A DNA stretch of 25,519 bases from a virus. Where the stretch lies: IMG/VR virus record IMGVR_UViG_3300029448_000299, positions 3,283 to 28,801 of that record; one strand, written 5' to 3'. A model generated the notes under the pieces. It saw only the letters and a program-made list of their open reading frames with translations, searched no databases and was not told the origin of the DNA. The stretch's first letter is position 1, and each line of letters opens with the position of its first letter. The translations under genes were made by a program, and so were the position numbers. This document shows positions 1,671 to 21,387 of this stretch, in pieces.

Positions 1671-1697
1671 AAAAAAAAAGCCCTAATAAAAGGGCTT
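1671..1697 (-). terminator. Rho-independent terminator after the tail-tube-like gene
   Basis: Read on the minus strand, a 7-bp perfect stem (AAGCCCT / AGGGCTT) with a 6-base A/T loop is followed by a run of T. It sits between the stop at 1722 and the start at 1638. It should reduce transcription from the capsid and tube genes into the 121-aa and portal genes. Confidence 0.85.
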
Positions 1698-3678: not shown

Positions 3679-4365
3679 TTAATTAATATTTGAAATTCTT
3701 TCTAAAACTTTTTCAGACATTGTCATTGGTCTGTTTCTACCATACTTTGGTTGTTCTTTAACCTCAGTAGTGCTTTCGGGTGAATGCTTAATAGCTTCCA
3801 CAGCTGGTTCAGCTGATAGTTGCTCTTCTAATTCTTCAATTGTCTTTGAAGCTTCCATTTTTTCACCTTTCAATTTGTTAATAGCGACCTCTAGATTTGC
3901 TATTCTTTCCTCCATGGCTTTCCAGTCATCAATTTTGACAATCATATTGCCTTCTTTGTCGACATTTATATGGTCTGCCATCTTTTTCTTCTCATCCTCC
4001 TCGTGTTCCTTCATCTCTTTTTCATCATCTTTTTTCATCTTTTTATCTTTATCATGATATTTTAAATCTTCAGTAATTTCTTTGGCTGGTACATCATCAC
4101 CAACAACTCTAAAGTCATCAATTACACCCTCCTCTTTAACCACCAAAAGCTTTCCGTCACTCATAACATATTCACCTACTGGCAATGCTATTTTTTCATC
4201 ATCGCTTTTGATAAATATTTCAGCACCTTTTTCGAAACGATCGGCTTCGACTACTGTGCCATTTTGTAAAGTCATAACTTCTAACTTTACCTCTTTTGAT
4301 TCTTCCAAACTTACTGGAATGTTCAAAATCTCTTTTACCTTATTTAATAATTCAGTAGATTTCAT
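3679..4365 (-). CDS. Scaffold-like head assembly protein, 228 aa
   Basis: The start is ATG 4365, and no other ATG precedes it in frame. The first 100 residues form a compact domain with LQNGTVVEADRFEKG and KIALPVGEYVMSDGKLLVV. A very charged Lys/Glu/Asp region follows at about 100-135, then a predicted coiled coil at about 145-185 (MEERIANLEVAINKL) and a basic C-terminus. This fits an internal scaffold or assembly protein: charged, helical, placed just before the decoration and capsid genes and after the protease-like gene. The N-terminal block matches proteins I recall from Bacteroidota phages. A chaperone fused to a scaffold is possible. Confidence 0.66.
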   Translation of the reverse strand: MKSTELLNKVKEILNIPVSLEESKEVKLEVMTLQNGTVVEADRFEKGAEIFIKSDDEKIALPVGEYVMSDGKLLVVKEEGVIDDFRVVGDDVPAKEITEDLKYHDKDKKMKKDDEKEMKEHEEDEKKKMADHINVDKEGNMIVKIDDWKAMEERIANLEVAINKLKGEKMEASKTIEELEEQLSAEPAVEAIKHSPESTTEVKEQPKYGRNRPMTMSEKVLERISNIN

Positions 4366-5345: not shown

Positions 5346-5921
5346 TTAAGCAAGTATATTTTTGATTTCATTCAATAAATTTTCAGCTTCTTTTTCTGAA
5401 TCATATTTTGAAGCCTCTATTTTATCAGCGAAATACCCCTCTATGCTAAAGCCTTTGATTTTTCCAGACTTCACTTCTTGCCAAGTCTCTTCATTTTGAA
5501 CTTTCATTGTGCCCATCCAAGAACCTTCTGGAACATCAAGCCCATAATATGCTGATTTATCTTGCTTTTTATTTTCAACTATCCAGCTTTCAACCAATGT
5601 CATTCCGCTTAAAGGCATTTTATGCTCAAGGGTGGCATTGTGTTGATTGTTATTCATCAAGAATTTTTGTGAAGCTTTCTCTACGGTATTTTTTGAGAAG
5701 TATATGTAATAATTACCTTCTTCATTTTTCCGCATGATAGGCTTGTTGGGTATCAAAAGAGCACCAACCAAAAGCCTTTTTTCATCATTGATGGTTTTTA
5801 ATAAAACTTCATCTGATTTTAAAGCTAAAAAATCTGATTCTATTGCTGGATTTTTTACAAGTGAGATGGCATTTACGCCATTATCTTCACCTTCATCTAT
5901 TATTAGTTCAATGATTTTCAT
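5346..5921 (-). CDS. XkdF-like putative prohead serine protease, 191 aa
   Basis: The start is ATG 5921. The protein resembles the XkdF family of putative phage serine proteases that mature the prohead. The N-terminus GEDNGVNAISLVKNPAIESDF is the usual opening. His100 in NATLEHKMP and Ser112 in TLVESW are spaced like the His/Ser pair of prohead proteases. The signature VKSGKIKGFSIEGYF (about 150-164) is near the C-terminus. Placement just before scaffold-like and capsid genes supports cleavage of scaffold or capsid during assembly. The catalytic assignment is inferred. The family is often annotated as protease without biochemical proof. Confidence 0.78.
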   Translation of the reverse strand: MKIIELIIDEGEDNGVNAISLVKNPAIESDFLALKSDEVLLKTINDEKRLLVGALLIPNKPIMRKNEEGNYYIYFSKNTVEKASQKFLMNNNQHNATLEHKMPLSGMTLVESWIVENKKQDKSAYYGLDVPEGSWMGTMKVQNEETWQEVKSGKIKGFSIEGYFADKIEASKYDSEKEAENLLNEIKNILA

Positions 5922-5954: not shown

Positions 5955-7706
5955 TTATAAAGTTGAACCTTCTACAATATTCCGCTCTAGGCTTTGGGCT
6001 GTGGTAACATCTTGACTCACCACAAAAGCTTTTATGGGTTGTTGGTTAGATAAAAGATTTGCAATCTGATTGGTAGCTGTAGCCCCAACAACATTAAAAG
6101 ATGGGGGTGTTGCTTCTGCTGGAGCACTAGCTGAAAAGCTTCCAGTTGTTGAACCACTTGATGCACTTGCAGCCTCGGCGGATGGGAGCCTAGTTCTTTT
6201 GATATCTGCAACAGCTTTGAAACCAGCAGCAGCTGTAGCAGCAGCAGCAATAAAGTTAAATGGTGGCGGTGATGAACTTAACGCTTGAGTTACTCCAAGG
6301 TAAGTATTGATTAAACTTTGAGCAATAGCCACCGCTTTACCAGCTTTTGAATCTTGGTCTATTAAAGAAGCTACAGCACCCAAACTCACTAGGGTAGCTT
6401 GAATTTTTTGGGCTTCTATTTTTTGTTTGTCTGCTAAAGTTTTTTTATTAACAGCTATTTCATTTGCAGCTGCTTGTTTTTGCAAAGTTAAAAGCTCTTG
6501 ATTGTTGGCTTGTGTGAAATCTTTTAATGCAATCTCTGCATCAATCTTAGCTTGAGTTCCTAAATTAGCTTCATTAATTACACCTTGTAATCTTTCTTCT
6601 TGGATTAATTTTTCTTTTTGATTAATTTCAATCAATCTCTGTAGCCTTTGGGTTTCAGTTAGCTCTTGCTCTGCTTCAAACTTTTGTTGATCTAATCTTC
6701 GATTTGTGTCAGCTTCGAATTCAGTATTTTTTAATTCAATTCGCTCTTTGTCTAAAGCCAAATCATTTGCTTTTTGCTCTGACCGAAAACCCTCAATTGT
6801 CGCCTCAACTGCAAGCACCTCATTGCGTGCTTGAATTAAAAGCACCTCATTTTCAATTGAAGCATTTTTGTCAAAGTTAGCTTGAGCACTTTTTAAAGCA
6901 ATGTTGGCATTTTCAAGCATTGTTTTATTTTGCTCTTCTAATATTTCGCCTAGTTTTTCATTTGCTTCAATTCTTTTCTCAATGCTGTTTCTTTCCTCAT
7001 CTCTGATCTGTCTTTGCTTCTCAGCTGCTCTGTCAAACTTTTCTAGCAATCCAACATTTTTAGCTTCAGCTAATTCTGCACTTTTTGCTAGATTAACATT
7101 TTCAATTGCTGCATCTTTTATGTTCACAACGTAGTCAGCTGCATCAGTAGCAGCTTCAACAAAGCCATCACCGGTCTGGCTAATGGCATCACCTAAACCG
7201 CTAAAGCCTTCTTTTGCATCATCTAATGCCCCACTAAAATCACCTCCAAATATCTTGCTGAACGCACTACCAAATTTTTGAAAAGATGCTACAGCTGTTT
7301 CAATAGGCTTACCAAAGAATTTATCAAAAGCTTCACCTACCTTTTTGATTGAATCAAAACCCCCAGTAAGCAACCCAAACACATCATTAAAAACTAATGC
7401 TAAAGATTCAAAAGCGGTGTTCACTATATCTACCACTTTTTGATTCTGCATGAATAAATCTTGCATAGTTTGCAGTGCAATTAAGAACACACCTATTCCA
7501 GCAGCTTTTATTCCGGATCCAATAGCCTTGATACCTTTGGCAGAAGATTCACCAGTCTTTTTTAATGCATCAAAACCTTGCTCGTTTATAGCGTTTGATT
7601 TCTCAACTAACTCATTAAGTTCTTTGAATTCTTTTCTTAAATCTTCAACCTCCTTAATCGCTTTCGCTGCTTCTACTTCTAATTCTAGATTTACTTTCTC
7701 TGCCAT
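5955..7706 (-). CDS. Tape measure protein, 583 aa
   Basis: The start is ATG 7706, overlapping the small gene upstream by 16 bases. An N-terminal coiled coil (about 5-45) is followed by a hydrophobic stretch GIGVFLIALQTMQDLF (about 70-85). A long heptad-rich helical region spans about 200-440, a second hydrophobic Ala-rich segment lies at about 455-505, and the C-terminus is Ser/Ala-rich. This is the classic tape-measure layout: the protein fills the tail tube, sets its length and may enter the host envelope during DNA ejection. At roughly 1.5 angstrom per residue it would imply a tail under 90 nm. That is a family rule of thumb, not a measurement. Confidence 0.82.
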   Translation of the reverse strand: MAEKVNLELEVEAAKAIKEVEDLRKEFKELNELVEKSNAINEQGFDALKKTGESSAKGIKAIGSGIKAAGIGVFLIALQTMQDLFMQNQKVVDIVNTAFESLALVFNDVFGLLTGGFDSIKKVGEAFDKFFGKPIETAVASFQKFGSAFSKIFGGDFSGALDDAKEGFSGLGDAISQTGDGFVEAATDAADYVVNIKDAAIENVNLAKSAELAEAKNVGLLEKFDRAAEKQRQIRDEERNSIEKRIEANEKLGEILEEQNKTMLENANIALKSAQANFDKNASIENEVLLIQARNEVLAVEATIEGFRSEQKANDLALDKERIELKNTEFEADTNRRLDQQKFEAEQELTETQRLQRLIEINQKEKLIQEERLQGVINEANLGTQAKIDAEIALKDFTQANNQELLTLQKQAAANEIAVNKKTLADKQKIEAQKIQATLVSLGAVASLIDQDSKAGKAVAIAQSLINTYLGVTQALSSSPPPFNFIAAAATAAAGFKAVADIKRTRLPSAEAASASSGSTTGSFSASAPAEATPPSFNVVGATATNQIANLLSNQQPIKAFVVSQDVTTAQSLERNIVEGSTL

Positions 7707-11803: not shown

Positions 11804-12297
11804 GTGCAAATCCAAATGTCATTATAGGTAGTGATTGAAAAACTAGCTGCCACCCCAGCCAATTCATTCGAAAACCTCTCGGTAAAGAATTCATATGAAA
11901 CATCACCCAAAACTTGGAACTCATCTTTGAATAAATCACCACCCTTCATTCTTTGAACTATCAAATTTGACACTGAAAGCTGGGTGTTAATAATGTCTTG
12001 CTCGTTAGTGTTGCCAATGTACAAATCTACAGTATCAGTTTTTCGATCATTTGAAATTATATCCATTGAAAATATGGTAACATCAAAAGTAAGCGTACCA
12101 GATCCGGCATTGTCTGATTGTGTCATCGAATTTAAAGTGACATGGCTAAGTGGAAATATCTCAGCTTTTTCTAAATTGATTCTAGTGATGTCACCAGATG
12201 TAACAGTTTTTACATTTGGGTCAAGAAGTAACTGGTTTTTTAGTGTGTCAGTTATTTCATAATACGCCCTTATGCCCCTTCGTTCGCTAGTGCTCAT
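11800..12297 (-). CDS. Neck or tail-terminator-like protein, 165 aa
   Basis: The start is ATG 12297, coupled (ATGA) to the end of the -1 frame extension of the chaperone-like gene. The blocks EQDIINTQLSVSNLIVQRMKGG (split here as EQDIINTQLSVS and NLIVQRMKGG, about 98-119) and FTERFSNELAGVAASFSITT (about 136-155) match a protein I recall from Bacteroidota phages that sits before gp10-like genes. Mixed alpha/beta composition and small size fit a tail terminator or connector. There is no enzymatic motif and the function is inferred. Confidence 0.7.
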   Translation of the reverse strand: MSTSERRGIRAYYEITDTLKNQLLLDPNVKTVTSGDITRINLEKAEIFPLSHVTLNSMTQSDNAGSGTLTFDVTIFSMDIISNDRKTDTVDLYIGNTNEQDIINTQLSVSNLIVQRMKGGDLFKDEFQVLGDVSYEFFTERFSNELAGVAASFSITTYNDIWICT

Positions 12298-12539
12298 CTT
12301 TTAATTTTTAATTTTTTCATTTCAACTTCGCTTTTGTCTTTCAAATAACTCAGCGCATTTAAACAAGTATGCATATTTAAGGTAACTGTATTTTCAATTT
12401 CGTTAATGTTTTCTCTAGCAAGTAGGAAAATTGATCCATACCATCCCCATCGAGCACTGAATCCACCTTCAAGGCTTGTTGATTCTTCGGATCGTTGAAA
12501 TAAGTTGTCATAACGTTCGATAACTGATTGCTTAAAAGA
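12294..12539 (-). CDS. Hidden -1 frame extension of tail assembly chaperone (frameshift product C-terminus)
   Basis: In the -1 frame relative to the chaperone-like gene, a TAG about five codons before the T9 run is followed by 81 sense codons ending at TGA 12294. No ATG, GTG or TTG occurs until ATG 12374, so most of the frame can only be reached by frameshifting. The encoded sequence looks like a real protein: GGFSARWGWYGSIFLLAREN (residues 25-44 of the extension), then a helical TLNMHTCLNALSYLKDKSEV segment. The F-x-x-x-WGWY pattern matches small proteins I recall next to tail chaperones in Bacteroidota phages. The frameshift product would have 164 + 81 = 245 residues. The stop overlaps the next ATG. 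Alternatively only a 26-aa peptide is made from ATG 12374. Confidence 0.7.
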   Translation of the reverse strand, partial: SFKQSVIERYDNLFQRSEESTSLEGGFSARWGWYGSIFLLARENINEIENTVTLNMHTCLNALSYLKDKSEVEMKKLKIKR

Positions 12540-13030
12540 AAAAAAAACTCCATGCTAGATATGACCGCATCCATAGGCATATTCAAAAGCCTATCTTTTT
12601 TTCCAGGATCGTAATCTTGAAGTGTGTATTTATTACCCACTTTGCTTTTTATGGGCCGGTAAAACACGTTCATAGAAGCATGAATTTCTTTTATATCAGC
12701 CAAATAACTATCAGCATCAATATACTCTCCGAAGCTCATGTCATCAAGATCGGGGTGAAACCAATATTCAACACCGTTTAGCTTGAAGTTTTCCACCAAA
12801 TCTTTTGGCTTTGACTCAAGCAATTTGGTTATTTTTCTCACAATAGAATCTGCATCAACCGCTTTTATTAGCCTTACATTTTCTGGCTTGACATGGCAGA
12901 ATATCTCTATTATTTTTTGAGCTAGAAAATTATGATTATCTGGGTATAATTCAGACACTGCTAAAAATTTTTGATAGTCAGAAAGTGTAATTTCAGATAA
13001 ATCTGTTGGTATTGTTATTGAAGCTTTCAT
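12377..13030 (-). CDS. Tail assembly chaperone-like protein (zero-frame product), 217 aa
   Basis: The start is ATG 13030, after a terminator. The protein begins MKASITIPTDLSEITLSDYQ, followed by KIIEIFCHVKPENVRLIK (about 39-56), WFHPDLDDMSFGEYIDADSY (about 90-109) and VFYRPI. This order matches a Bacteroidota phage family that I recall as tail-assembly-chaperone-like or unnamed structural. The gene lies upstream of the tail genes, and a -1 frame extension begins after residue 164. In the zero frame 53 further residues follow, so bases 12377-12539 are coded in two frames. Tail chaperones bind and fold the tape measure during tail assembly. Here the tape measure is about 4.7 kb downstream, farther than usual. 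Confidence 0.66.
   Translation of the reverse strand: MKASITIPTDLSEITLSDYQKFLAVSELYPDNHNFLAQKIIEIFCHVKPENVRLIKAVDADSIVRKITKLLESKPKDLVENFKLNGVEYWFHPDLDDMSFGEYIDADSYLADIKEIHASMNVFYRPIKSKVGNKYTLQDYDPGKKDRLLNMPMDAVISSMEFFFLLSNQLSNVMTTYFNDPKNQQALKVDSVLDGDGMDQFSYLLEKTLTKLKIQLP
12539..12547 (-). promoter_or_regulatory. Candidate -1 slippery site (T9) in tail assembly chaperone gene
   Basis: On the coding strand the zero frame reads GAG TTT TTT TTT CTT TTA AGC. The second and third TTT, preceded by T, form a T TTT TTT heptamer suited to tandem -1 slippage, after which TCT TTT AAG continues the open -1 frame. The run length of nine is fixed by the zero frame staying open to 12377. Polymerase slippage on T9 could give the same result. 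I could not evaluate a downstream stem. Confidence 0.62.
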
Positions 13031-13961: not shown

Positions 13962-14396
13962 CTAGTACAGATTACTTTTGAAGTATCTTTTGTAGTATTT
14001 GGTAGGTAGAAAAATAACCTTTCGATATTCACCGTAGGAATTGGTGAAGTCTTTCCAGTTGATATTTGCCATGATTAGCAATTTGAGCATCTTATCTTTC
14101 TCAATATAGTAACTCTCTTCACCGTCATATATTACCCACCAATGGGCAGTGGATGTCATGATGCCACTGGGTTTGTGATTGGCTTCTAGTTCAAAAACAA
14201 AGTTACCAGTTCGCTTAGATGCATAGTCATATTTAACCTCCACCCCTTGAGATGTTTCTGGAATCCAAATGTCATAGCCAGAGAATTTAACTTTGATTTG
14301 AACAGCAGCTGGATATTTAGCTCTTATTTCTTGAAGCACATGAAGCTCGGCTTTGTGCCCAATCTCTAAATCTTTTTGGAAGTGGTTAACGAACAT
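13962..14396 (-). CDS. PD-(D/E)xK-like endonuclease beside terminase, 144 aa
   Basis: ATG 14396 is used; the longest frame begins four codons earlier at TTG. The core reads KFSGYDIWIPETSQGVEVKY, giving Asp42, Glu53 and Lys55 in the D-x(n)-E-x-K layout of the restriction-endonuclease fold. An upstream helix has Glu17 (GHKAELHVLQEI), a fourth common position. It overlaps the large terminase stop by 11 bases. Proteins of this sort beside terminases in marine phages may process DNA ends or resolve replication structures. Degradation of host DNA is an alternative. The fold is inferred from motif spacing only. Confidence 0.62.
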   Translation of the reverse strand: MFVNHFQKDLEIGHKAELHVLQEIRAKYPAAVQIKVKFSGYDIWIPETSQGVEVKYDYASKRTGNFVFELEANHKPSGIMTSTAHWWVIYDGEESYYIEKDKMLKLLIMANINWKDFTNSYGEYRKVIFLPTKYYKRYFKSNLY

Positions 14397-15555
14397 GGTA
14401 TTTGCCAAAGTTTGGTTTGCTTAAAATTGAGTAGGTTGAATATCTTAGTGAATCAATCAAATGATCGTTACCCGGTCTGGGCACATTCTCAAGCTTTCTG
14501 TCTTTTTCAATCCACTTATAATTTCGCATTTCACGAATGAGATTATCACTGGTATTCAATATATGTATTTTATACCTTTTTAACAAATCGATACTAGCGT
14601 TGATAGAATCTTTACCCTTAATACTAGGTAGTAGTGTATACCTCCCAGAGCCTAGCCTTCTCAGTTCTTCTATCAATCTGGGTTCAGCACTGTCTGCATA
14701 GATGGGCTTATTTTCTAAATTTTCATTTATTAGAAAATTATAAATATCGATTGTAGTCATGTGAGTTCTATAAAGATGCTCTTTTACATACAAATTAAAA
14801 TCTAGGATGTACGTACTAATAAATGCAGATTGATCGTTGGTGTAGCCGAAATCCATGCCATGACTTAGTAATTTTGCATTTGTGGGAATTTGTTCACATT
14901 CTACAAACTCAAATATAGTAGCCCTAGATTTAGCCTTCTGACCGAGCCCATAGATTGACCAATATTGAGCGTCTGTAGTTTGAAGTCGGGTTATTTCTTC
15001 TTTGACCGAATCTTCAATGAAAGGGTTATGTGTATAATTAGTAATATGAAAATCAACATCGGAACGAGTAAGCACCTTATCATAAAGCCAGTGGTATTCT
15101 TCACTTGGGTTATAATCACATATAATCTTTTCACTGGTTCGAAAAATTAACTGGTTCCAGGATTCATAATCTATTTCATTGATCTCATTACAAAAGAGTA
15201 AATCTCTTTTTCTACCCCTAACTTTCATAGGCTGGTCAAGGCTTATAAATTCAACCAAATTACCAAAGAGCTTATATTCGCTGTTACTCTTGTTGTGTAA
15301 GTGATCTTCATATCTACTGCCATATTTTTCATGGGTAAGTATATAAAAGAAATCACGCATTACAGTAGCCCTCAAAGCTGGGTAGGTACGTCTGCAAATA
15401 GTAACGATTTTACCAGTATTATTAGCACAATAATAAAAGATTATCCAAAGCAAAATATTGTATGTCTTGCCGGATCTGGTGCCACCTTGCTCAATGGTGA
15501 TTTTATTTGTGGATTCTAGCAGATGTTCAAAAACCACATTAGCAGCTAAATTCAC
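14386..15555 (-). CDS. terL: Terminase large subunit, 389 aa
   Basis: The start is GTG 15555, which overlaps the small subunit stop as GTGA. The N-terminal ATPase has Walker A GGTRSGKT (24-31), an arginine-rich segment TICRRTYPALRATVMRDFF (about 52-70), Walker B with Glu in RDLLFCNEINEI (117-128) and the coupling-type segment CDYNPSEEYHWLY. The C-terminal RNase-H-like nuclease has Asp235 in GMDFGYTND, Asp288 in YADSAEPRLIEEL and Asp367 in NDHLIDSLRYS. It packages phage DNA into proheads through the portal and cuts the concatemer. Length and motifs fit the Terminase_3 (PBSX-like) family. All key residues are present. Confidence 0.95.
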   Translation of the reverse strand: MNLAANVVFEHLLESTNKITIEQGGTRSGKTYNILLWIIFYYCANNTGKIVTICRRTYPALRATVMRDFFYILTHEKYGSRYEDHLHNKSNSEYKLFGNLVEFISLDQPMKVRGRKRDLLFCNEINEIDYESWNQLIFRTSEKIICDYNPSEEYHWLYDKVLTRSDVDFHITNYTHNPFIEDSVKEEITRLQTTDAQYWSIYGLGQKAKSRATIFEFVECEQIPTNAKLLSHGMDFGYTNDQSAFISTYILDFNLYVKEHLYRTHMTTIDIYNFLINENLENKPIYADSAEPRLIEELRRLGSGRYTLLPSIKGKDSINASIDLLKRYKIHILNTSDNLIREMRNYKWIEKDRKLENVPRPGNDHLIDSLRYSTYSILSKPNFGKYHVR

Positions 15556-16528: not shown

Positions 16529-16708
16529 TTATTTAGCTGGTTTTTCTATGATAGTATTTTCAATGATCAAGTTTTTGGTCTGTCTAAGAAATATCTGCTG
16601 CTCTTTTTTACTTTCAAATTTGCTTGGAACTGTTATATTAAGATCGTTCATATATTCTGGTTCTGGATCAAAAAAAAATTTTATCAATTTATCAAACAAA
16701 GTTTTCAT
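16529..16708 (-). CDS. Small unknown protein, 59 aa, in frame with the methyltransferase
   Basis: This short frame was read directly. ATG 16708 overlaps the DnaA-like gene by 17 bases, and the TAA at 16529 is in the same frame as the methyltransferase downstream, four codons before its TTG start. The peptide opens MKTLFDKLIKFFFDPEPEYM, an amphipathic helix rich in Phe, then has a charged middle (PSKFESKKEQQIFLRQTKN). It may associate with membranes or with another protein. I do not recognise a family. Confidence 0.6.
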   Translation of the reverse strand: MKTLFDKLIKFFFDPEPEYMNDLNITVPSKFESKKEQQIFLRQTKNLIIENTIIEKPAK

Positions 16709-17435: not shown

Positions 17436-18129
17436 CTGTTCTAAGTTTTAAAAGATGATAACATTCTATATACTTTTCTTTAGCCTTAGATTTGTATTTT
17501 TCTTTGAATAATTGATACATTTTTTTGGTTAACTTGTATGGTGTGTCAACATCTAGGTATTTTTGAGAAAACTTGATACCTTTTCCATGAAAAAAATTTA
17601 CATTATCGGCCGAATCACCAGTGATCATTTGAGTATAGAAGTTTTTTAGAGCATCAAATTTAGATACATCTAAAAATTCTTTTCGATTATACCTATAAAT
17701 TAGGGCTGGGAGCTGTAAATAATCTTTATCAATCGATACAATCATTACATTATCTCTTCCATATTCTTCAGAATAGCTCTTCCAGTAACTAGCAACCATG
17801 TCATCAGTCTCCACTCCGAAGCCCCTCACGCCATTATATGTGTCATGAACGTGTTTGTGTATGTTTGGAAGCATTGGAGGCTTTATTTGGTCTTTTCTAT
17901 TGGCTTTGTAAGTCTTTGTGATGAGTTTTCTAAAGTTACCACGTGAATCGTTGAACACAACCACCTCCGATAAGTCATAAATATCATCTAATTCATTAAT
18001 AATGTTCTGAAAGCTTTCATCGAACTTAAAAATAACATCATCCAAATTATCATAAAACGTTTCCGGATCCTCTTTGGGCCGGTAACAACTAGCAAAAATT
18101 AAAGAATCAGCATCTACGAGTATTTTCAT
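17425..18129 (-). CDS. 5'-3' exonuclease / RNase H-like (PIN/FEN superfamily), 234 aa
   Basis: ATG 18129 overlaps the methyltransferase stop (ATGA). The acidic residues of the FEN/PIN fold appear in order: ILVDADSLIF (Asp6, Asp8), VETDDMVASY (Glu107, Asp109, Asp110), VSIDKDYLQL (Asp134, Asp136) and MITGDSADNV (Asp172, Asp175), followed by a helix-hairpin-helix-like HGKGIKF. The closest named relatives are T4 RNase H and phage 5'-3' exonucleases, which remove RNA primers and process flaps during replication. Length fits. All metal-binding acids seem present. Confidence 0.86.
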   Translation of the reverse strand: MKILVDADSLIFASCYRPKEDPETFYDNLDDVIFKFDESFQNIINELDDIYDLSEVVVFNDSRGNFRKLITKTYKANRKDQIKPPMLPNIHKHVHDTYNGVRGFGVETDDMVASYWKSYSEEYGRDNVMIVSIDKDYLQLPALIYRYNRKEFLDVSKFDALKNFYTQMITGDSADNVNFFHGKGIKFSQKYLDVDTPYKLTKKMYQLFKEKYKSKAKEKYIECYHLLKLRTDVK

Positions 18130-18773
18130 GAAAATAAATCTGTTTGGTTTACGTTTTGTTTATTAATTATTCCAATGGCAGCATCTAAAATCGTTTTACC
18201 AGCTTCATAATCTACTAAATTCCTAGCCATTTTGTTTGTGGGTTGTTTGCCTTTGTATTTATAAAAATCAAAATCGTGAAATTCACATAATTTTTTAACT
18301 TCATTCTTACCACTACCAACTAAGACTTCTCTTTTTGATAAAATTCTTGGTAATTTAAAATTACACCAATATAAATGTCTAGCTCTTTTTTGAGCTGGAA
18401 TTAATGGGGTGTAAAATGGGATGACATTCTCCACACAATATTTACCTTCAAAATAATGTTGAATAAAAATGATTTCTTGATACAAATTCATATCTGGATA
18501 AACAGGTTTGTGTCTAGCTTTGATTGATTTGCGTGAACCAAAAGCTGCCCTACTATGTGTTGGGCATGGTGGGCTTGACCAAATAAAATCAAACTCTTTA
18601 TAATGATCTAAAAGGTACTGGTGAGCATCTGCAACAATAACCTTATCGCCTGGAAAACGTTCTTGATATAATCTAGCAGCTTCTGAATCTAATTCAACCG
18701 CTGTAATATCGTGATCGTTACCCCACTTATATCTATTACCTCCTAAACAAGCGTATAAATTTAATATCTTCAT
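18126..18773 (-). CDS. C5-cytosine DNA methyltransferase, compact, 215 aa
   Basis: The start is ATG 18773. Motifs are in order: I LNLYACLGGNRY (4-15), II VELDSEAARLYQERFP (26-41), IV with catalytic Cys70 in WSSPPCPTHSRA, VI CVENVIPFY (Glu115), VIII QKRARHLYW (128-136) and X ARNLVDYEAGKTILDAAIG near the C-terminus. The usual FxGxG of motif I is replaced by ACLGG. The target-recognition region between VIII and X is only about 40 residues, well below typical full-length Dcm-type enzymes, which suggests relaxed or short-site specificity. It is probably used for DNA protection or regulation. It is coupled to the exonuclease downstream. Confidence 0.86.
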   Translation of the reverse strand: MKILNLYACLGGNRYKWGNDHDITAVELDSEAARLYQERFPGDKVIVADAHQYLLDHYKEFDFIWSSPPCPTHSRAAFGSRKSIKARHKPVYPDMNLYQEIIFIQHYFEGKYCVENVIPFYTPLIPAQKRARHLYWCNFKLPRILSKREVLVGSGKNEVKKLCEFHDFDFYKYKGKQPTNKMARNLVDYEAGKTILDAAIGIINKQNVNQTDLFS

Positions 18774-18776
18774 TTT

Positions 18777-19589
18777 TTAATCTGTACAAAATCCAGCTTG
18801 ACATCCACTTCCACCCCCATAAATAAAATCTAATTGTTTACCAATTTTTTTTATTTGTTTGAAACTCATTTCTTTTTTCCAAGTGTGCTTTTTTTCTTGA
18901 TCTGAAAACCACTGCATTTTTAAAGGTTCATCATCCCAATTTTTTCTAAGCTGTTGTAATTGTTTATGAAAACAACCAACACAATTAGAATCTTCTGGGA
19001 AATGAATACCGCTATTTAATGCCCACTTATATATAGGGTAATGAGTTATTTTATCTTTTATTAATGGAAAATACCCTTCGCGCCATTCTATTTCTTGCCA
19101 TTTGTTTTGGGTTTTTCTTTTACCTACTATACCCTTAAAAGACACACTAAATTTTTTTGCCCTTTCTTTTTCATCATACCTAAACCCTATACCCATCTTA
19201 ATTTTTTGATTTATATTTTTAAACCACCAATCAAATATGGGGCGAAGTTTCATCTCTGTAGTGCAAAATCTCCATTGTTGATTTGGTAACCCTTTACCTC
19301 CAGTTTTTTCTTTATTAACTTGCTCAAATGATTTTCCAGTTACCCAAATAATTTCTTTACCTAGTATTTGTTCTAAATCAAATATTACTTTTAAAGTTTT
19401 ATCTGATTCAGCAGTCGCAATAAAATCAATACCAATTTTATCAGAAACCATTTGAATTAACTTATCATCTTTAGGTTTGCATTTTATATCATCAATTCTA
19501 ACTAAAGCAAAAACATTATAGTCAGCTGGATAATGAACAGCTAGATAACTACTTGTTTTGCCACCAGACAAAGAATTAATTGTTTTCAT
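18777..19589 (-). CDS. PP-loop ATPase, PAPS-reductase-like, 270 aa
   Basis: The start is ATG 19589. The N-terminus INSLSGGKTSSYLAVHY holds the PP-loop SGGKTS (8-13) that binds ATP pyrophosphate. WRFCTTEMKLRPIFDWW (106-122) corresponds to the C-T-x-x-x-K-x-x-P segment of PAPS reductases. Additional cysteines form pairs: CVGCFHK (203-209) and CQAGFC (263-268). PAPS reductases lack this set, but Fe-S PP-loop enzymes such as DndC and tRNA thiolases carry similar ones, so sulfur transfer to nucleic acid is possible. The gene is two bases upstream of the cytosine methyltransferase. Sulfate assimilation support is the alternative; the substrate is not known. Confidence 0.8.
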   Translation of the reverse strand: MKTINSLSGGKTSSYLAVHYPADYNVFALVRIDDIKCKPKDDKLIQMVSDKIGIDFIATAESDKTLKVIFDLEQILGKEIIWVTGKSFEQVNKEKTGGKGLPNQQWRFCTTEMKLRPIFDWWFKNINQKIKMGIGFRYDEKERAKKFSVSFKGIVGKRKTQNKWQEIEWREGYFPLIKDKITHYPIYKWALNSGIHFPEDSNCVGCFHKQLQQLRKNWDDEPLKMQWFSDQEKKHTWKKEMSFKQIKKIGKQLDFIYGGGSGCQAGFCTD

Positions 19590-21358: not shown

Positions 21359-21387
21359 AAAAAAAAAGGTGGCTTTTACACCACCCC
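21359..21387 (-). terminator. Rho-independent terminator after the SSB-like gene
   Basis: On the minus strand the stem GGTGG / CCACC with an 8-base loop is followed by about nine T. It lies between the SSB-like stop (21400) and the RepA-like start (21338), so the two genes are partly uncoupled. Confidence 0.83.

Follow-up and report, generated by a model that had tools for sequence, protein, structure and literature searches.

Does the slip gene analysed here encode one protein or two, and, if two, does the ribosome or RNA polymerase slip to make the second? The gene lies in the window (the whole 25,519-nt stretch of DNA that was analysed, part of a 28.8-kb virus record whose main genes are on the minus strand), and all of its features are on the minus strand (Table 1). 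A run of nine T's followed by an open -1 frame, from which a sequence-only reading had proposed a hidden frameshift product, is indeed present. Across the run the zero frame reads GAG TTT TTT TTT CTT (E-FFF-L) and continues for 53 codons, to 12377, and the -1 frame stays free of stops from 12554 until a TGA at 12296-12294, which gives 83 codons counted from the first codon inside the run and 81 after the three Phe codons, the latter being the number originally proposed. One detail of that proposal was corrected: the upstream -1 TAG exists (12557-12555) but lies about three codons, not five, ahead of the run. The first ATG, GTG or TTG of the -1 frame, the ATG of ..LNMHT.., is late as claimed and stands 26 codons from the end. 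A shift at the run would join 164 zero-frame residues to the 81 of the -1 frame in a 245-residue long form, whereas +1 products would end at once owing to the TAA 4 nt after the run.

Table 1. Features of the slip gene and its surroundings, with single-frame genes of other phages; positions are those of the window unless a locus is named.
Feature	Position	Strand	Evidence or remark
Zero-frame gene, 217 aa, mostly helical, putative short G-like form	12377..13030	-	phrog_32199, E 4e-19 (function unknown); AlphaFold pLDDT 87
T9 slip site, zero-frame codons TTT TTT TTT	12539..12547	-	at least nine T's in 538/539 sequences
Possible ribosomal heptamer T_TTT_TTT	12545-12539	-	inside the T9 run
-1 extension, 81 codons after FFF, plus TGA	12294..12547	-	conserved order in the tail: FR.R....Y.ELF, then WGWY, then FEKEK
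Dual-coded stretch, zero-frame C-terminus and -1 tail	12377..12538	-	family-wide conservation of each frame beyond the demands of the other
+1-frame stop TAA, 4 nt past the run	12532..12534	-	+1 stop at most 9 nt from the run in 365/380 members
Next gene, 165 aa	11800..12297	-	ATG shares bases with the -1 stop (ATGA) and not with that of the zero frame
Terminase large subunit, upstream of the slip gene	14386..15555	-	phrog_2, E 3.4e-35
Probable tape measure protein, fifth gene downstream of the slip gene	5955..7706	-	phrog_3336 tail length tape measure, E 4.4e-9
Single-frame genes just after the terminase, Bacteroidales phages	L555:2338-3027, L556:21212-21796, L558:10399-10953, L559:7210-7809

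The family was assembled by tblastn together with IMG/VR and genome scans, the best 80 relatives per scan being kept; family counts are therefore counts among the matches listed, and the sample leans to close relatives. In total, 539 sequences contain both parts of the gene, the window included (463 of 475 sources in a first set, 74 of 75 in a second and both of two in a third). The window itself (L003) was left out of the table of the first set, and the 12 sources of that set without one or both parts comprise nine pattern matches outside the family (L228, L250 and L310-L316) and three sequences that end near the slip site (L141, L024 and L026); from the second set L490, which has no first part, was dropped. 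Several loci share one contig, and L397 is the genome of Nonlabens phage P12024L again. The start-codon, RNA-structure and both codon-redraw analyses used a cluster set of 461 loci, whose 362 distinct proteins form 191 clusters at 80% and 84 at 60% and which predate the 74 loci of the second set, and the run table holds 535 loci with 415 distinct proteins, 399 of which entered the tree after incomplete ones had been dropped; L402 and L466 were left out of both. The family has among its members two phage isolates and, within a 3.9-Mb genome, a presumed prophage; identity falls to about 30% in the Nonlabens phages. In the genome sampling, members were found in 3 of 397 genomes of the family of G001 and in 1 of 395 of its phylum, G001 being counted in both. 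One member (L188) is located on a contig titled as an Epsilonproteobacteria MAG, which is possibly a misbinned phage contig.

That the hidden -1 frame after the run codes for protein is strongly supported by these relatives. The tail is conserved in the 539 sequences and, among the matches listed, lies in the -1 frame relative to the first part in 538 of them (462/463, 74/74 and 2/2); the sole exception, L402, looks like the result of a 1-nt indel ahead of a normal T10 site. Homologues of the -1 frame therefore exist and keep it open, and the proposal of a hidden product was not refuted. In the part read in the -1 frame only, 239 of 361 substitutions between 82 close pairs fall at position 3 of the -1 codons, as do 2213 of 3111 before the run at position 3 of the zero-frame codons (close pairs). 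When the zero-frame codons were redrawn, a -1 stop appeared in 97% of sequences, and the -1 similarity dropped from 2.40 to -0.16 (78 representatives). Furthermore, 267 of 380 members have a next gene whose ATG shares bases with the -1 stop codon, beginning one base ahead of the stop (ATGA) in 214 and on its last base in 53.

The zero frame past the run, which is open for a median of 55 codons in the family, is constrained as well. Its open stretch reaches 40 codons or more in 95% of 190 clusters, compared with 37% when the -1 codons are redrawn among synonyms, and its mean BLOSUM similarity after the run is 0.54 against 0.16 in the redraws (sd 0.02; 83 representatives, 60% identity). The excess is found mainly at columns 3-9 (NLGIELS) and at about 37-51 (around HSLKEILQDL), with little in the middle of the overlap, where column 35 falls under the redraw (z -3.6); beyond column 57, the usual end of the zero frame, the similarity is at the redraw level, which provides an internal control. 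Within the overlap, 132 of 767 substitutions occur at zero-frame position 1, which is -1 position 2, versus 330 and 305 at the two remaining positions. Coding and constraint of both frames in their overlap are thus strongly supported, and the earlier suggestion that 12377-12539 is dual-coded was borne out by the codon redraws, in which each frame proved to be conserved beyond the requirements of the other.

The run at which the two frames meet is itself nearly invariant. Among the matches listed, T9 or longer occupies the site in 538 of 539 sequences (first set, T9 384, T10 75, T12 3 and T4 1; second set, T9 61 and T10 13; third set, T9 2). Around the site in 399 distinct run-bearing members (444,817 nt) there are six T7 runs, no run of T8 or longer and six A9 runs, the last all located after the slip site; these members were all chosen with the run present, and the unselected figure is the 538 of 539. 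A claim that T8 or longer is avoided in the neighbouring sequence was dropped, since few T8 runs are expected where T7 occurs only six times, and the A9 runs mean that long homopolymers are not confined to the slip site. The other three sense-strand T9 runs of the window (1671-1679, 16670-16678 and 21359-21367) lie outside the listed genes.

The second Phe codon of the site (Phe in 355 of 399 tips) is never TTC and shows no change on the tree, in contrast to three further Phe columns, also nearly invariant, where TTC makes up 22-33% and the tree has 51-63 changes. A T-to-C change at the second Phe codon of the site would leave both encoded sequences unaltered in 349 of 415 distinct proteins; in the class to which the window belongs (FFFL) it would alter the -1 product, so that sites of this class do not discriminate between mechanisms. 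A pattern scan of IMG/VR for the T7C variant, in which the run is broken and the heptamer kept, returned seven matches and none in the family, and the scan for the T9 variant returned at least 120 stretches, with 117 of the 119 checked belonging to the family (L150 unchecked). The T's contributed by the preceding codon (A) and by the following codons (B) compensate for each other: A=1 is found only with B of at least 2 (L561 being a further case, with B=2), and B=0 only with A=3. The sum A+B is at least 3 in all 399 tips, whereas shuffled flanks give 21.5 violations on average (none of 5000 shuffles was free of them); when flanks were shuffled at the clade level over 79 uniform clades, the mean was 4.94 violations, with zero in 1 of 20000 shuffles. 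The amino acids account for part of the run length, since in most members a V, I or L codon precedes the two Phe codons and a codon starting with T follows them. The zero-violation and zero-TTC counts exclude L466, because its site has no T run and the locus was left out. No downstream RNA structure was detected in pseudoknot-free folds of the 50-nt windows after the run in 190-191 clusters (mean z about 0; the stretch in the window +2.15, L466 -0.83). Downstream stimulatory structures are common, not obligatory, in programmed -1 ribosomal frameshifts. At the level of sequence comparison, the silent-site, flank-compensation and RNA-structure results say that the T run itself is under selection.

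The usual explanation for frameshifts of tail chaperones is a slip of the ribosome on a heptamer, and the lambda-like -1 frameshift of the sequence-only reading belongs to this type; its frame relation and its coding stand, and the conservation of the run fits polymerase slippage better than the ribosome. Slippage by RNA polymerase is favoured here over ribosomal frameshifting, with a probability of roughly 0.6. According to PMC5009743, nine A's or T's allow efficient slippage by bacterial RNA polymerase, and Baranov et al. (PMC1088944) regard a run of nine kept among homologues as very likely to serve purposeful slippage; a run of this kind, with its length kept, is what was found in the family. 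The principal alternative, a tentative second choice, is a programmed -1 ribosomal frameshift at T_TTT_TTT as in lambda G/GT, in which two Phe-tRNAs would slip back by one base on a normal U9 mRNA. It has in its favour that a slippery heptamer of the form X_XXY_YYZ occurs in the zero frame, as T_TTT_TTT in all 535 run-bearing loci tabulated and as A_AAT_TTT in L466, and that the mode established for tail chaperones is shifting by the ribosome (PMC5009743). However, a ribosomal slip needs T_TTT_TTY only, although nearly every member keeps at least nine T's; TTC is absent from the silent position and from the family in the T7C scan, the flanks compensate to hold nine T's, and downstream structure was not detected in the folds described above. 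In E. coli there is more shifting at the tetramer U_UU.C than at U_UU.U, and IS elements use U_UU.U_UU.C (PMC4066793), so that a ribosomal site should tolerate TTC, although the efficiencies measured in E. coli may not hold in Bacteroidota.

The locus L466 bears on the choice between the two. It is the only relative without the T run: at L466:251-260 the site is GTA AAT TTT, so that the canonical heptamer A_AAT_TTT replaces the run, with the -1 tail intact, and this lineage should accordingly shift at the ribosome. A scan anchored on L466 revealed no second run-less case, all new loci having at least nine T's (L490 apart). L466 is possibly a natural switch of mechanism; either the family can use both mechanisms, or it uses the ribosome throughout and keeps the run for another reason. 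The wider reading, to which we lean slightly, is that a large lineage of tailed phages, probably infecting Bacteroidota, uses polymerase slippage at an obligatory run of nine or more T's to fix the ratio between two tail-assembly proteins, that at least one lineage, L466, has switched to a ribosomal heptamer, and that the gene is a viral counterpart of dnaX, the homologues of which use polymerase or ribosome. Reportedly, dnaX was described by Larsen et al. in 2000 as using both slippage modes.

Under polymerase slippage, one gene would give rise to two proteins. The unslipped mRNA would yield the 217-residue form, and RNA polymerase would slip on T9 to produce a share of mRNAs with one extra U, the ordinary translation of which would give the 245-residue protein. 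The first 164 residues would be common to both forms, with the long form ending in a different, mostly helical C-terminus of 81 residues. Loss of one U or gain of two would lead into the +1 frame, with a stop within a few codons. The two forms would most likely be a short and long pair like lambda gpG/gpGT, with the common part on the tape measure protein and the tail of the long form recruiting the tail tube. What the comparison among relatives shows is that both frames code, with the run as their junction, and that at least nine T's are kept there; the polymerase as the slipping agent, the direction and share of its slips, and the chaperone role are inferred. The hallmark of programmed transcriptional slippage is a heterogeneous mRNA length at the run.

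Three further explanations fare far worse. The -1 tail might be a separate protein with its own start or coupled to the zero-frame stop, as it is annotated in Nonlabens phage P12024L, where gene 41 begins at an internal ATG on the last base of gene 40; this is improbable, since the -1 frame has no ATG between the run and WGWY in 186 of 191 clusters and none upstream in 188, lacks ATG, GTG and TTG anywhere before WGWY in 123 of 191, and is conserved from the run itself, ahead of the Nonlabens ATG. Genes 40/41 of P12024L and 38/39 of P12024S are direct homologues of the slip gene with T9 and the -1 tail (both parts match by tblastn, the tail weakly, with E 0.07 to 0.6); they differ in being annotated as two hypothetical proteins and in a zero frame that ends about 25 codons after the run. 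Gene 41 (L001:4091-4258) most likely encodes the C-terminal end of a protein that is made by frameshifting in gene 40. Phase variation at the DNA level, in which replication slippage in the run would toggle between fused and unfused genomes, draws on the proneness of homopolymers to such slippage (PMC1088944) and is very improbable: none of the 539 sequences has the tail in frame with the first part, and the -1 relation is the same in runs of 9, 10 and 12, since their flanking codons differ. A chance open frame, as an assembly or compositional artefact of an AT-rich genome (33.6% GC), is equally improbable and already contradicted by comparison, given the recurrence of the arrangement in 539 sequences, isolate phages and presumed prophage included, and the substitutions at -1 codon position 3.

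The label of a tail-chaperone-like gene, also proposed earlier, fits the architecture and the neighbourhood; the window protein itself has no match in Pfam, and its PHROG has no known function. From the architecture, the size and the place among virion genes, a tail-assembly-chaperone-like role with a G/GT-like pair is suggested by analogy, and the slip gene may work like a tail assembly chaperone (TAC). Chaperones of the lambda G/GT type bind tape measure and tube proteins, are absent from virions and are made in a fixed ratio of two forms. Like gpG/gpGT, the slip gene would have a short form and a long -1 form with a common N-terminal part, and it stands among virion genes; comparative genomics predicts such a pair, with a shared N-terminus and a frameshift late in the first frame, in 538 of 539 sequences, both frames being constrained. 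It differs from gpG/gpGT in its nearly invariant T9+ site without detected structure, in a zero frame that runs about 55 codons past the site and is itself conserved, in the lack of a significant match of the window protein to a named TAC family, and in its location near the terminase, with four genes separating it from the tape measure candidate, rather than immediately between the genes for the major tail protein and the tape measure. The minus-strand order is terminase, small genes, slip gene, four genes, tape measure candidate, protease, further genes and portal.

Similarity searches gave scattered results. PF10109 (Phage_TAC_7) matched 2 of 67 members, with E 0.01 at best and no better than unrelated Pfam families, and phrog_166 'tail protein' matched 3 of 67 (best E 1.8e-4). 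The -1 tail had no convincing match in PHROGs (best E 0.19) and none in Pfam; among tails of relatives, phrog_38404 (function unknown) matched 16 of 74, and Pfam matches were spread over nine families with one or two members each. The zero-frame model matched mostly unnamed or uncharacterized BFVD entries and one that bears the name tail assembly chaperone (E 0.013). Seven entries of BFVD, 226-267 aa long (A0A516L611, A0A6J7WJY4, A0A6J7XA66, A0A6J5SVK3, A0A6J7WDG4, A0A6J5N0W0 and A0A6J5N3F3) match both the zero-frame and the tail models, with tail-side E of 0.0019 to 1.6, and may be single-frame fusions. A PDB sequence search returned no match, Foldseek of the zero-frame model returned none at E of 0.001 or below, and the tail model reached Z 2 with none of eight chains; this absence of structural matches excludes no fold. 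VIA-align matches with Z up to 5.3, mostly at model residues 164-217, were set aside as an arrangement too common to carry meaning. In the zero-frame model (pLDDT 87) the run lies in a helix (153-179) that continues in the zero frame, and the model of the -1 tail has a helical start (residues 3-14, low confidence) followed by helices 28-45, 50-57 and 61-85, so that the two forms are predicted to share a body and swap its end.

In Flavobacterium phage FPSV-S2, where an annotated tail assembly chaperone stands beside the tape measure, the family profiles had no significant match. Bacteroides, Parabacteroides and Phocaeicola phages, reached via the terminase (60 of 1055 records listed, four examined), have a single-frame gene at or near the place after the terminase (Table 1). 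Resemblance of the C-terminal ends of these genes to the -1 tail is no more than a faint lead (HMM E 2.8-9 for three of four; hhalign probability 12% over 36 columns), and their N-terminal part had no match to the first part of the slip gene.

Frameshifted tail chaperones as such are already known. A literature search that covered few subscription papers, several of the sources being available in part, found no tail chaperone made by polymerase slippage and no frameshift in a flavobacterium tail assembly chaperone. The site resembles those of Thermus thermophilus dnaX and of the 9A/9T IS elements in its length-conserved nine-base homopolymer and in more than one product per gene (PMC1088944 and PMC5009743); it differs from them in belonging to a phage gene among virion genes, and its slippage is putative. 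If polymerase slippage is the true mechanism, the ratio of the two forms would be fixed in the mRNA pool, readable by RNA sequencing and dependent on the polymerase, and a virion-assembly gene would be added to the cases of programmed transcriptional slippage. In addition, a gene called hypothetical in annotated records gains its missing C-terminal domain, and a dual-coded stretch of about 53 codons becomes available with a built-in control region behind it.

Several minor observations concern the neighbouring genes. The best match of the tape measure candidate is phrog_21537, a virion structural protein (E 5e-17), and the gene at 1722-2276, the PHROG of which has no known function, is presumably tail-tube-like. 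The genes at 3679-4365 and 5346-5921 match phrog_24921 (349 aa) at 221-276 and 1-172, respectively, with a 264-aa ORF between them, and are perhaps the parts of a split protease-scaffold gene. A phosphoadenosine phosphosulfate reductase-like gene (18777-19589) adjoins a DNA methyltransferase-like gene (18126-18773).
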